From a virus, in the IMG/VR virus record IMGVR_UViG_3300029264_000336, positions 1 to 35,451 of that record: DNA of 35,451 bases; one strand, given 5' to 3'. How positions within the stretch are numbered: position 1 is the stretch's first letter; each line of letters starts with the position of its first letter. The position numbers and the translations under genes are program-made. The notes under the pieces were generated by a model. The model worked only from the letters and a program-made list of their open reading frames with translations, was not told the DNA's origin and made no database searches. Positions 23,635 to 27,815 of the stretch are shown here, one piece after another.

Positions 23635-23777
23635 ATCGTTCACCGCCTTTGTAAATATTCAATAGGTACTTGTACAAATATCAGAAAAGGGAAGTCAACG
23701 ATATTTTTTGTCTTGACCTGTGGCGTTGGTTGTTTATGAAGGTAATCACCAACCACGCCAACCACGGAGCCAACCAC
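23635..23777. promoter_or_regulatory. Divergent early control region with repeated operators
   Basis: 143-nt AT-rich gap between the leftward and rightward early operons. Rightward: TTGACC (23713-23718), 16 bp, TATGAA (23735-23740). Leftward: TTGACT on the minus strand (23698-23693) with only a weak -10. Repeats: CCAACCAC at 23749, 23758 and 23770, and an inverted GTTGGTTG at 23725-23732. A palindrome TTGTACAA lies near 23670-23677. The repeats overlap the start of the rightward transcript, as expected of an operator. Confidence 0.6.
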
Positions 23778-24167
23778 ATGATTGACCCAAACAACCGCGA
23801 ATTTATCCTGAAGGGCAAAGCTGCCCCGATCCGCCTGGCCCGCATTTACGCCCAGGGCATGGGCTTGCTGGACGCGGCCTATGTCACCAACTGGACGCCC
23901 GGCCCAGGCTACGGAACGCGCCGGGAAAGCACATGGGCCGAGAAGCGGGCGCGGGTTGCTTCCTTCATGGACAAGGCCAAGGCAGCGCTTGCGAAGAGCC
24001 AGGCTTACACCGAGCGCCAGGAACGCGCATGGCAGGAACACGGCGCGGAATTGCTGGCGATCAAACGGCAGATTGAAGAACTTGAGAACAAGCCCGATCG
24101 CTGGAACACGAAGCCGGACCTGGAATATCTTCAGAGCCGCTACGACGCCATCATCGAAGCCGCATAA
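23778..24167 (+). CDS. Coiled-coil early protein of unknown function
   Basis: 129 residues from ATG 23778 (MIDPNNREFILKGKAAPIRL) with GGAG eight bases upstream; ATG 23736 in frame has no ribosome site and would translate the operator repeats as NHA/NHG units. The first half holds ARIYAQGMGLLDAAYVTNW. The second is a long charged helix (EKRARVASFMDKAKAALAKS ... ELLAIKRQIEELENKPDRWN) likely to form a coiled coil. It is the first gene of the rightward early operon, 30 nt before the GHKL-like gene. First-transcribed early genes are often host-takeover factors, but nothing in the sequence shows which. Confidence 0.65.
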   Translation: MIDPNNREFILKGKAAPIRLARIYAQGMGLLDAAYVTNWTPGPGYGTRRESTWAEKRARVASFMDKAKAALAKSQAYTERQERAWQEHGAELLAIKRQIEELENKPDRWNTKPDLEYLQSRYDAIIEAA

Positions 24168-24197: not shown

Positions 24198-25355
24198 ATG
24201 AACGTATATTTTGCAAACCCCGGCGCACTTGATCCTTCCGTTATCACGACAATGGGGGTTTCAGTTAAGCAGAAAAAAAGCCCCATTGGGTTCTTTGGGA
24301 CGGGTCTGAAATTCGCTATTGCAACGATCCTGCGCCTGGGCTGCAAGATCACAATTAAGACGATTGACGCATCAGGCCAGCCCTTCGAAATGAAGTTCAC
24401 CACCCGCCGCGAAAGCATCCGGGGTGAAGGCTTCGACGTGATCTATATGAACGAAGAGCGCTTGGCCTTCACAACCCAGCTAGGTCGCAACTGGGAAATG
24501 TGGCAAGCCTACCGTGAAATCCACTCTAACACGTTGGACGAAAACGGGACGATCAGCGCGGAAGAGACTAACAACGACACCGTGATCTGCGTGACTGGCG
24601 ACGCCTTCTTCAATGAGTTCGAGAAGCGGGACGAACTGTTCCTTACTGGTGAACCTATCGCAGAAACAGACGGGCTTCAGGTCTTCCGGGGTTCAGGCCG
24701 TTATATCTATTACCGGGGAGTTCGGGCCGGGAGTTTGCCGGAAGGTGCTTGCTACAATTACAACCTAACAGTCACTTGCGAGTTGAGCGAAGACCGCAAC
24801 TTCAAAAGCAACTGGGACGTTGAATATAAGATTGCCAACCGTATCCCGACACTTCGAAACCCTGAAGTTCAATCTGAAATCTTGCGGGGTTCTTCGAAAT
24901 GGGACCAGTGCTTAACCTTCTACGGTGACGACGCTTCCCCAGAGTTCTTGAACGCCGCCGAGCAGAACAGCAGCAACGCCCAGATGAACGACAGCGCCCG
25001 GCGTATTGTTGAGCGGAAGAAGCAGGAAACCAGCGGCTTCGAACCTTGCGAAGTGTCGGTCGAAATGGCCGTCGAAATGGGTAAACAACTGGACTTCCTC
25101 AAGAAGAAGTTCGGTTGCACGGTTACGATTGACGATCTGAATGTCAGCGAAGCGCTAGGGCCATCGGTTGCGGCTTGCTTCCACGTTTCGACAAACCGGA
25201 TTTATCTGGCGAAGCAGACCGTGGAAATCGGGGGTGACGTTCTCGCCGCCGCGATCCTGGAAGAGTGGTTCCACCAGAAGCATCATCACAGCGACGAAAG
25301 CCGCAGCTTTCAAAACTTCATCATGCTGAAGCTGGTCGGGACGGCCCGCAAATGA
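24198..25355 (+). CDS. Divergent GHKL-like ATPase with EExxH C-terminus, uncharacterised
   Basis: 385 residues, ATG 24198 after AGAAAGAGAATAAA. Residues 6-55 (ANPGALDPSVITTMGVSVKQ, then KSPIGFFGTGLKFAIATILR, LGCKITIKT) resemble the ATP-lid region of GHKL ATPases (gyrase B/Hsp90/histidine kinase/MutL type): a 'N-P-G...D' turn, G31-FFGTGLK glycine box and an amphipathic helix. The canonical upstream N-box helix is absent, so binding may be unusual. The middle is beta-rich (FRGSGRYIYYRGVRAG). Near the end come NRIYLAKQTV and AAAILEEWFHQKHHHSDESR with E355/E356-x2-H359, a reversed or degenerate zinc-peptidase-like EExxH motif, then SFQNFIMLKL. I know similar uncharacterised phage proteins. It could act as an ATP-dependent switch in takeover or anti-defence. 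Role unknown. Confidence 0.7.
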   Translation: MNVYFANPGALDPSVITTMGVSVKQKKSPIGFFGTGLKFAIATILRLGCKITIKTIDASGQPFEMKFTTRRESIRGEGFDVIYMNEERLAFTTQLGRNWEMWQAYREIHSNTLDENGTISAEETNNDTVICVTGDAFFNEFEKRDELFLTGEPIAETDGLQVFRGSGRYIYYRGVRAGSLPEGACYNYNLTVTCELSEDRNFKSNWDVEYKIANRIPTLRNPEVQSEILRGSSKWDQCLTFYGDDASPEFLNAAEQNSSNAQMNDSARRIVERKKQETSGFEPCEVSVEMAVEMGKQLDFLKKKFGCTVTIDDLNVSEALGPSVAACFHVSTNRIYLAKQTVEIGGDVLAAAILEEWFHQKHHHSDESRSFQNFIMLKLVGTARK

Positions 25356-25498: not shown

Positions 25499-26494
25499 AT
25501 GACCAACGAAACCCCAGAGACAACCGCAATCGAACTCTTGCCGGACGGTATCCACTTCGACCTTCCGTTCGAAAAGTATCTTGACGACGAAGCGCTAGGA
25601 TCATCCGACCTGAAGAACCTTTTGATCAGCCCGCTTCAGTATTGGGTCAACAGCCCCTTGAACCCCAACCGCGCACCGCGCAAGGACACCGACGCGAAGC
25701 GCCTGGGAACCCTGATCCACGAAGTAATTCTGGAAGACCCCGACAAGACGTTTGCGGTCAAGCCTGAAGGCATGTCGTTCTCAACCAAGGCCGGGAAAGA
25801 ATGGCGGCAACAGCAATGGGACCAGGGCGCGGAAATCCTGACCGAAGACGAGAACCGGACGCTCAATACCATCATTGAGGCTTGCAAGCGTTCGGGCGTG
25901 ACCGAGACGATCCGGGGCGCGATCCCGGAGGTGTCTTACATCTGGACCCATGAGAGCGGCCACCGTTGCAAGATCAGGCTGGACGCGATGAAGGCCGACA
26001 TGGCGTTCGACCTGAAGACCTTCGCGAACCAGATGGACAAAGACCTTGAAGTCTGCATCGCCTACGCGACCGGGAACCTACGCTACCACGTCAGCGCGGT
26101 ATGGTATCGCCGGGGCATCGACCACATGCGCCAGGCGATCCAGGGCGGAAGCGCAGCGATCCACTTCCACGACGACAAGCGCGACCAGGAACCCGTTGCC
26201 GCCATGCTTGAGGGCTTCGAGAAGTACCAGGGACACTACCCGCATTGGTACATCTTCCTTGAGAAAGACGGCGTTCCCAACGTGATCCCCCGGCAGTTCG
26301 TCAACCGTTCCGGTGATCCAGGCGTCCCGGCCAACGAGTATTGGAAGTCGGCTTGCTTAGGCGTCGACCGGGCCACCACCATCTTCGCGGAACACAGCGC
26401 CGAGTTTAAGCGCGGCGAAATGTGGATGCGCCCGACGCATTGGAAGTCGTTCACCGATGAGGAATTGGGCGCGGCGCGTTCAATCTTTGAGTGA
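25499..26494 (+). CDS. RecE-like (exonuclease VIII type) PD-(D/E)XK exonuclease
   Basis: 331 residues from ATG 25499 with AAAGGAG upstream. LGSSDLKNLLISPLQYWVNS and KRLGTLIHEVILED (H74-E75) match the opening of exonuclease-VIII C-terminal domains. The active site is HRCKIRLDAMKADMAFDLKT with D162 and D171-x-K173. Such enzymes chew 5' strands of double-stranded DNA to expose 3' single strands for annealing, and pair with an annealing partner; here the Sak4-like ATPase two genes downstream is the natural partner. It ends with TGA overlapping the next ATG (TGATG). Length suits the catalytic domain alone, without the long N-terminal part of E. coli RecE. Confidence 0.85.
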   Translation: MTNETPETTAIELLPDGIHFDLPFEKYLDDEALGSSDLKNLLISPLQYWVNSPLNPNRAPRKDTDAKRLGTLIHEVILEDPDKTFAVKPEGMSFSTKAGKEWRQQQWDQGAEILTEDENRTLNTIIEACKRSGVTETIRGAIPEVSYIWTHESGHRCKIRLDAMKADMAFDLKTFANQMDKDLEVCIAYATGNLRYHVSAVWYRRGIDHMRQAIQGGSAAIHFHDDKRDQEPVAAMLEGFEKYQGHYPHWYIFLEKDGVPNVIPRQFVNRSGDPGVPANEYWKSACLGVDRATTIFAEHSAEFKRGEMWMRPTHWKSFTDEELGAARSIFE

Positions 26495-26832
26495 TGCCCA
26501 TTAGCCCAGAAAAGGCGAAGAACTATCCAGGCGGTTCTATAAATAGCAAGGAATGGAAGGCGTTTCGCGCCTTCCTGTTATTCCGCGCCGCGAACCGATG
26601 CGAGGGGACGCCGCAGCACCCTGATTGCAGGGCGCACAATAAGCAACCACACCCGGAAACCGGGGGGCATGTCGTCCTTACGATTGCGCACATGGACCAC
26701 GACGAAAGACACGCCGACCCGGAGCGATGCCGGGCGCTTTGTCAGCGGTGTCACAACAAATGGGACGCCCCGTTCAGAGCCGAAAACAGAAGAAAAAAGA
26801 AAGCAAAGGACCAATTATGTTTGAAGTTGTAG
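26494..26832 (+). CDS. HNH endonuclease-like protein
   Basis: 112 residues from ATG 26494 (TGATG overlap with the exonuclease stop; a GTG at 26491 is an alternative). It carries paired cysteine motifs and an HNH-type core: CEGTPQHPDC (C-x8-C), VLTIAHMDHD with the His-rich beta strand, and ALCQRCHNKWD (C-x2-C-H-N). These form the zinc and metal sites of HNH nucleases. Sitting between an exonuclease and an annealing ATPase, it may work in recombination or be a free-standing HNH helper; it does not look like an inserted homing gene because both neighbours are intact. The tail is Lys-rich and overlaps the next gene by 16 nt. Confidence 0.75.
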   Translation: MPISPEKAKNYPGGSINSKEWKAFRAFLLFRAANRCEGTPQHPDCRAHNKQPHPETGGHVVLTIAHMDHDERHADPERCRALCQRCHNKWDAPFRAENRRKKKAKDQLCLKL

Positions 26833-27815
26833 AAGCCAAGCGCGAGAGCGCACCAATCACCGCCGCGTTCATTGGCGGGTCCGGGTCCGGGAAGACCTAT
26901 TCCGCCCTACTGTTCGCCCGTGGCCTGGTCGGCCCCGATGGCGTGATCGTCGTGATCGACAGCGAAGGGGGACGCGCAAAGATTTACGCCGACGATCCCG
27001 ATATTGGCGGGTTCAAGATGATCGACATGGTGGAGCCATACACGTCAGACCGCTTCCGGGACGCCTTCCGGGCAGCGGTCGCGCACGGGGCCGACGCCGT
27101 GATCATCGACACGATCAGCCACGAACACGAAGGCTTTCTGGAATTTGCTGAAGCCGAACAGAAGCGCATGAATTTCAACGCGGCTTCGAACCGGAACAAG
27201 TGGATCAAGCCGAAGGGCCAGCGCAAACGGTTCTATTCCGCGATCAGTTCCAGCCATGCCCATGTAATCGCAACCATCCGATTGAACCGGATCGTAGACA
27301 TGGACACCAAGCCAGCACGGGAAATCATGAAACCCGAATGTGACAAGGACTTCCCCTACCGCATGGACCTTTCCGTCCAGATCGAACCAGACCACAAGAC
27401 CAAGGTGATCAAGGTTCCAAAACCCCTGGTCGGCATTGTCGAAGATGGCGTCTTCATCACCAAGGAACACGGCCAGCGCCTTGCCGCCGACAACGACCAG
27501 CAAGCGAAGCCTGACATGGAGGTGATCCAGGTGATGGCAAAGCTGGAAAGCGAGGCATACGCCGGGGAAGATAGCCTACGAACCGCCTATCAATCCGAAT
27601 GGAAGAAGGCAGGGCCAAGCGGCAGCAAGGAAGAACTTAAGACGATCACGCCCGTTCGCGCCGAAATGCAGAAGCACCTTGAACGCCTGAAGACATTGGC
27701 CGCTGAAGCCGACGAACGCCCGAAGACCGAGGCGGGCGAGTTTGGCGACATGCCCAACAGCCAGCCCGAAGAAGACCACGGGCCAGGCCAGTTCGGGGGA
27801 GGGGAAGGGCAGTGA
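26817..27815 (+). CDS. Sak4/AAA_24-like recombination ATPase
   Basis: 332 residues from ATG 26817 (AAAGGA upstream). Walker A is AFIGGSGSGKTYSALLFARG (residues 18-37, GGSGSGKT). A RecA-like strand carries VIVVIDSEGGRA with D48/E50, and Walker B is DAVIIDTISHEHEG around D98. This is the layout of Sak4-type single-domain RecA-like ATPases that assist single-strand annealing in phages. A later MEVIQVMAKLESEAYAGEDS helix region and an acidic, Gly/Gln-rich C-terminus follow; such tails often bind single-strand-binding proteins. It lies after the RecE-like exonuclease, forming a recombination pair. Its stop overlaps the next start as GTGA. Confidence 0.8.
   Translation: MFEVVEAKRESAPITAAFIGGSGSGKTYSALLFARGLVGPDGVIVVIDSEGGRAKIYADDPDIGGFKMIDMVEPYTSDRFRDAFRAAVAHGADAVIIDTISHEHEGFLEFAEAEQKRMNFNAASNRNKWIKPKGQRKRFYSAISSSHAHVIATIRLNRIVDMDTKPAREIMKPECDKDFPYRMDLSVQIEPDHKTKVIKVPKPLVGIVEDGVFITKEHGQRLAADNDQQAKPDMEVIQVMAKLESEAYAGEDSLRTAYQSEWKKAGPSGSKEELKTITPVRAEMQKHLERLKTLAAEADERPKTEAGEFGDMPNSQPEEDHGPGQFGGGEGQ

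Follow-up and report, generated by a model that had tools for sequence, protein, structure and literature searches.

A phage protein family with a circularly permuted GHKL-like ATPase domain and an altered zincin-like C-terminal domain

Introduction

The GHKL ATPases, among them gyrase, Hsp90, MutL, MORC, and the histidine kinases, are some of the best studied nucleotide machines. In Hsp90 and GyrB, the N-terminal arm swaps between subunits, and in every GHKL member that we know of, the N-box lies ahead of the G1 and G2 motifs. GHKL ATPases also occur as parts of restriction operons (PMC2292703), and a Shedu-type defence protein is a GHKL-nuclease (PMC12137116). In phages, the canonical GHKL order is found in the proteins of phrog_6077, such as the 'histidine kinase-like ATPase' of Acinetobacter phage ABPH49 and gp71 of PaMx11. 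None of the open-access papers searched describes circular permutation in a GHKL, Bergerat, or HATPase domain, although such a description may exist elsewhere, and the protein described here goes unnamed in the phage literature searched.

That protein is encoded in a viral DNA of 35,451 nucleotides (IMG/VR record IMGVR_UViG_3300029264_000336, positions 1 to 35,451), the whole of which is referred to below as the window. Direct homologues are YuA gp29 and phrog_8203, 33% identical over the full length and with the same permuted order and layout. The window protein shares with the phrog_6077 proteins the motifs RExxxNxxD, LGxSxK, IGxFGxGxK, and L-x-R/E-D-R followed by a helical region, and is homologous to them across most of its length after rotation, but in phrog_6077 the N-box lies at about 22-32 and G2 at about 70-88, and the aligned members have no zincin-like C-terminus. 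The 'ATP-binding proteins' of Croceicoccus (WP_047824690.1), Salinibacter (WP_231847039.1), Natrinema (WP_226778665.1), and Moorella phage MTATph1 combine, like the window protein, a GHKL domain, a transducer, and a C-terminal zincin; unlike it, they have the canonical order, DxGxG in G1, and an intact HExxH...D...FE site. In its predicted structure, the window protein also appears to resemble Hsp90/TRAP1, GyrB, and MORC in a Bergerat-type ATP site and an S5-like second domain, whereas those proteins are unpermuted, much larger, and carry other C-terminal domains. The Wss1, SprT, and selecase zincins resemble residues 283-385 at the level of fold only (Z < 8) and differ in the first metal His, which is Glu in the window protein.

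Results

The ORF encoding this protein is a genuine gene (Table 1). The product matches the phrog_8203 profile almost end to end (E 4.7e-71, residues 3-381 of 385 onto 4-384 of 394), and homologues, mostly at 30-37% identity, are present in 73 phage records, the phages being mostly those of Pseudomonas (YuA-like) and Bordetella. Most of these homologues were deposited as hypothetical and some as HATPase, ATP-binding protein, or metallopeptidase. Scans of viral contigs with the single sequence returned zero relatives, and only alignment-based scans recovered them; the resulting alignment of the permuted family holds 79 members drawn from IMG/VR and GTDB genomes. The Pfam GHKL models matched neither the window protein nor any of the 79 members, and Pfam and NCBIfam gave nothing usable for the window protein, with Pfam remaining blank even after its sequence was reordered, so the link to GHKL proteins was made through the canonical phage and cellular relatives. 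A PDB sequence search with the permuted profile returned chance matches only and hence no solved relative by sequence. An identity with T4 rIIA-type proteins was considered and is unsupported, the fold match being weak (E 0.06). The proposal of the preliminary description, made from the DNA alone, that a GHKL-like ATPase is joined here to an EExxH-ending domain was borne out by profiles, motif invariance, predicted structure, and the zincin-like character of the C-terminus, and the conservation of the GFFGTGLKFA and EExxH-ending motifs among the 79 relatives places both beyond chance.

Table 1. Positions in the window of the gene, the parts of its product, and the neighbouring genes
Feature	Position	Strand	Remarks
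Upstream co-directional gene, unknown family	23670..24167	+	No PHROG match
Complete gene, coding for a permuted GHKL domain, a transducer-like region, and a zincin-like C-terminal domain	24198..25355	+	385 aa
G1 strand and loop, residues 2-12: N7-x-G9, D12	24201..24233	+	Residues 6-57 map to phrog_6077 49-101
G2 box GFFGTGLK, residues 31-38	24288..24311	+	G31, F33, G34, T35, G36, K38 in 79/79
Displaced beta-alpha-beta block, residues 86-125 (E87-92, H101-114, E118-120)	24453..24572	+	N-terminal in canonical relatives
N-box E107xxxN111xxD114	24516..24539	+	Invariant in 79/79; aligned with canonical RE25xxxN29xxD32
S5/transducer-like region with L-[ST]-E-D-R motif	24573..24806	+	L196, E198, R200 invariant
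Zincin-like C-terminal domain, residues 283-385	25044..25352	+	VIA-align Z 7.9 to Wss1; hhalign E 5.1e-11 to the HExxH domain of the cellular proteins
Altered metal site E355-E356-x-x-H359 ... D366 ... Q372	25260..25313	+	Equivalent to H437-E438-x-x-H441 ... D448 ... E454 in cellular relatives
Exonuclease VIII (RecE)-like neighbour	25499..26494	+	phrog_412 E 4.8e-35
phrog_1366/Sak4-like annealase neighbour	26727..27815	+	phrog_1366 E 3.5e-49; phrog_124 Sak4-like E 3.5e-8

The alignment of 79 members has 21 invariant columns (G20, K24, G31, F33, G34, T35, G36, K38, R46, R75, W99, R106, E107, N111, D114, E115, G117, T128, L196, E198, and R200), and the elements of a GHKL ATP site can be followed through them. 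The chain begins at the strand leading into G1, where N7 is kept in 78/79, G9 in 71/79, and D12 in 76/79 members. This G1 has no DxGxG, an Asn standing in place of the adenine-contacting Asp in 78/79 members, and nucleotide preference or affinity may differ as a result. The G2 box carries a full GxxGxG, with G31, G34, and G36 present in all relatives; the segment GFFGTGLKFA (residues 31-40), likened earlier to an ATP lid, is this G2 box. The same description held that the canonical N-box helix is absent, which is wrong: in the stretch RE107-IHS-N111-TL-D114-E115-N-G117, the canonical spacing of ExxxNxxD is intact and the motif invariant throughout the family, but the stretch lies after G2, 70 residues beyond the glycine box. 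E107 is the predicted general base and N111 a predicted Mg2+ ligand. In the transducer-like region, the L-[ST]-E-D-R motif has LDRDR and NRERS as its canonical counterparts, and R200 is a candidate gamma-phosphate contact.

Four tests concur in showing that the predicted Bergerat domain of the window protein is circularly permuted, with block 86-125 placed behind G1, G2, and the central sheet, all of which it would ordinarily precede. These are the placing of HMM pieces, a scan of profile rotations, the succession of secondary structure elements, and alignment to solved GHKL structures. For the first, residues 1-85 match positions 49-101 of the phrog_6077 HMM and residues 86-126 match positions 6-39; the sequence in native order gives three stretches (E 1.9e-11) and the reordered sequence a single one (E 5.7e-16). 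Profile-profile comparison behaves in the same way, the native order yielding two matches that are not collinear (4-303 to 48-350, E 9.1e-15; 85-137 to 3-55, E 7.5e-7) and the rotated order one (E 2e-22). The rotation scan against phrog_6077 peaks at a cut of 75-85, and that against the second canonical family, the cellular two-domain proteins, peaks at about the same cut. Scored against the canonical profile, the N-box piece reaches 55.9 and the best of 60 column-shuffled controls 19.0. The order is G1, G2, N-box in all 79 permuted members, with G2 near residue 30 and the N-box near 100, while canonical viral relatives have the N-box near 22-32 and G2 about 50 residues further on, the exceptions being N-terminal extensions and a few proteins with one motif that does not fit the pattern. 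Two N-boxes flanking G2, the intermediate expected from duplication and trimming, were not seen in the canonical loci scanned.

The structural evidence comes from an AlphaFold2 model of the window protein (pLDDT 93.3) and, as a control, a folded canonical relative (L225, pLDDT 85.7). The control runs E4-8, H19-37 (N-box), E43-47, E50-55, H62-66, H85-96 (G2), E100-105, E108-116, E124-131, E141-146, H150-157, and the window model runs E2-7, H14-17, H35-46 (G2), E50-56, E62-74, E77-84, E87-92, H101-114 (N-box), E118-120, E128-133, H135-142. Moving one beta-alpha-beta block makes the N-terminal elements of the model those of the control, with the sole exception of a short control helix, H71-75, which lies in the lid, where confidence is low; the correspondence extends to the final six elements of the C-terminal domain. 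Alignments to solved chains were read against what we take to be the N-box positions in Hsp90 and GyrB. The alignments of the canonical control begin at chain residue 12-29 in Hsp90 and at 14-22 in GyrB (Z 11-13), and those to Hsp90, TRAP1, and GyrB start before the N-box, for example from residue 21 in 7z37 (Z 12.3) and from 15 in 5zxm (Z 11.4). For the window model, alignment with these chains starts only beyond the N-box (at residue 82 in 7z37, Z 6.2, and at 67 in 5zxm, Z 5.1), and its Z scores against Hsp90, GyrB, and MORC, all in alignments beginning past the N-box, are a moderate 5-6. Block 86-125 would presumably pack in the canonical place of the N-box. A plain Foldseek search of the PDB with the window model gave no significant match, as is expected when a sequential aligner meets a chain that is permuted.

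The C-terminal domain has Wss1 and selecase-type zincins as its top structural neighbours. The match of residues 283-385 to Wss1 (rmsd 3.3 over 95 residues) falls below a Z of 8 and is by itself suggestive only; the same residues are homologous to the HExxH domain of the cellular relatives. Between the cellular and the permuted family, the site changes from HExxH...D...E to EExxH...D...Q, with E355 conserved in 77/79, E356, H359, and the third conserved acid of the motif, D366, in 74/79 each, and Q372 in 75/79. HExxH itself is not found, the first metal position being Glu in 77/79 and never His, and the HHH run of EEWFHQKHHH (residues 355-364) is unconserved. The earlier view of the C-terminus as zinc-site-like therefore holds for the domain, through its Wss1, selecase, and SprT-like matches, but not for the first His of HExxH, which is replaced by Glu family-wide. 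The paired H-to-E and E-to-Q changes suggest that the metal site has been altered rather than has decayed. Yet the motif or the domain has been lost from nine of the members examined (L021, L093, L100, L104, L105, L106, L107, L008, and L011); eight of these keep the ATPase residues intact, and the distant L011 retains most of them. As such losses occur while the ATPase residues persist, the ATPase is the constant part of the family, and the permuted ATPase can stand without the zincin-like domain. The genes L008:4995-6065 and L011:3983-5242, together with L104, L105, L106, and L107, are permuted and have no zincin-like domain or no motif for it.

Relatives in canonical order occur in phages (phrog_6077), in cells, and on plasmids, and genome searches with N- and C-terminal profiles found cellular proteins with both domains in that order. 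One of these (L127, 471 aa) carries an N-box, ENWEMHHAIREIIANALDE, followed by DFGRG, GKFGIGLK, and HELIHAKTGHDDVTREFE. Its match to HATPase_c_3 (E 3.4e-5) falls just short of the curated cut-off, that to SprT-like is sub-threshold (E 0.006), and in a PDB search by sequence it matches GyrB weakly (E 0.017), in direct order from the N-box through G1. Its relatives, at 41-48% identity, lie on plasmids of Priestia, Croceicoccus, Salinibacter, Euzebya, and haloarchaea, and a canonical two-domain protein is also encoded by Moorella phage MTATph1. Compared with the cellular two-domain family, the window family gives E 5.8e-20 without the N-box in native order and E 3.9e-24 end to end once rotated. 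In a tree for which the permuted rows were rotated ahead of alignment, all permuted proteins fall on one side of a branch that has 100/100 support and is present in every bootstrap tree; because the permuted proteins form one clade, the permutation probably arose once. The two arrangements divide the Mesyanzhinovviridae, YuA (Rabinowitzvirinae) having the permuted and PaMx11 (Bradleyvirinae) the canonical protein. The canonical PaMx11 gene adjoins a DNA ligase gene. An inserted stretch splits the cellular GHKL-zincin gene of L128 and L130 (genome G095) and contains an ORF that, judged by eye, resembles an IS200-type transposase.

Exonuclease VIII-like, HNH, Sak4-like annealase, and repressor-like genes are co-directional with the window gene. 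The gene had been assigned to an early operon, and these neighbours would fit an early recombination module. The HNH ORF (26491-26832) overlaps the Sak4-like ORF by about 100 bases, and translation of the Sak4-like gene probably starts at an ATG further in (MFEVVEAKRE...). A recognisable replication or recombination gene lies within 7 kb at 42 of 95 loci of permuted genes, with counts over the 95 loci of 21 for primase, 14 for ATP-dependent DNA ligase, 10 for DNA polymerase, and 20 for recombination or exonuclease genes, and some permuted phage members lie near a Gam-like gene. Two cellular homologues, each a canonical GHKL + HExxH gene, have other surroundings. On Salinibacter ruber pSR56 (L138:3962-5404), the gene is flanked by hsdS and hsdR in a type I restriction operon of the order hsdM-hsdS-ATPase-hsdR and has a gene for a SprT-family metalloprotease downstream, and its product is a candidate defence component; on a Natrinema zhouii plasmid (L142:3983-5377), it stands two genes upstream of Piwi-domain and phospholipase D family genes. 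PADLOC models gave no match to the window protein and one marginal DrmB match for YuA gp29.

Discussion

It is highly probable from these results that the window protein is a permuted ATPase, able to hydrolyse ATP to judge by its conserved residues, and that its zincin-like domain has been altered. Since E107, N111, D114, G31/G34/G36, and R200 are all invariant, we infer that the ATP pocket still forms unchanged from the permuted chain. Binding of ATP would then close a dimer or clamp of the Hsp90/MutL type, and hydrolysis would reopen it. The C-terminal domain would be the part that holds or cleaves the substrate, with a metal perhaps held by E355, H359, and D366 instead of two His, and the substrates of the clamp would be DNA-bound proteins during early phage DNA metabolism. 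As a role, we tentatively favour, at somewhat under an even chance, an ATP-gated protein or DNA clamp that acts in early phage DNA metabolism or in protection of the phage DNA. The broader evolutionary reading appears to us evenly poised between right and wrong: a phage permutation of the Bergerat fold, of single origin, would have yielded a true ATPase in which the N-box helix exchanged its place in a free N-terminal arm for a fixed one between ATP site and transducer and in which the zincin metal site was re-tooled from His-His-Asp to Glu-His-Asp, the whole being a relative of a defence-linked cellular protein.

The main rival to a clamp in DNA metabolism is counter-defence, which we regard as a doubtful but serious contender. 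A phage would have taken a GHKL-zincin protein from a cellular defence island, permuted and altered it, and turned it on a host defence complex, for example a type I restriction system, which it would block, mimic, or process. The positions of the cellular homologues between hsdS and hsdR and near Piwi and phospholipase D genes lend this idea indirect support, as do the GHKL ATPases of restriction operons (PMC2292703), the Shedu-type protein (PMC12137116), and the Gam-like gene near some phage members; the absence of a PADLOC match to the window protein and the recognisable phage neighbours, which are mostly replication and recombination genes, speak against it. The host-takeover or counter-defence function first suggested for the protein thus gains from its cellular homologues and loses from its phage neighbourhood.

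An active metallopeptidase, in which EExxH...D binds metal and cuts DNA-bound proteins under ATP control, much as SprT and Wss1 act on DNA-protein crosslinks, seems to us unlikely. Its first metal His has become Glu in nearly all members and is His in none, and nine members dispensed with the motif or domain while keeping all or, in distant L011, most of the ATPase motifs; it draws some strength from the closeness of the domain to Wss1 and selecase-type zincins, from the cellular sibling with a complete HExxH...D and a sub-threshold SprT-like match, and from the retention of E356, H359, and D366. It is very improbable that the N-box-like helix arose by chance or by convergence in a domain other than a permuted Bergerat fold, for although Pfam GHKL models are silent and the structural Z against GHKL chains is moderate, the ExxxNxxD block is invariant, its score far exceeds the shuffled maximum, the rotation scans against two canonical families peak at about the same cut, and the secondary structure corresponds one-to-one with the canonical model.

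A permuted GHKL protein in nature is an experiment on which parts of this fold need to be linked, and in which order, above all with regard to the N-terminal arm. If the proposed ATPase with its N-box helix in a fixed place is correct, that placement would alter how closure upon ATP binding is coupled to dimerisation. Domain libraries miss the family because its chain order is permuted, the Pfam GHKL models matching none of the 79 members, and dozens of phage genomes have consequently been left with a conserved ATPase that is unannotated. The canonical cellular relatives, whose zincin is intact and one of which is encoded within a restriction operon, point to an uncharacterised family of ATPase-proteases that may have a role in defence.
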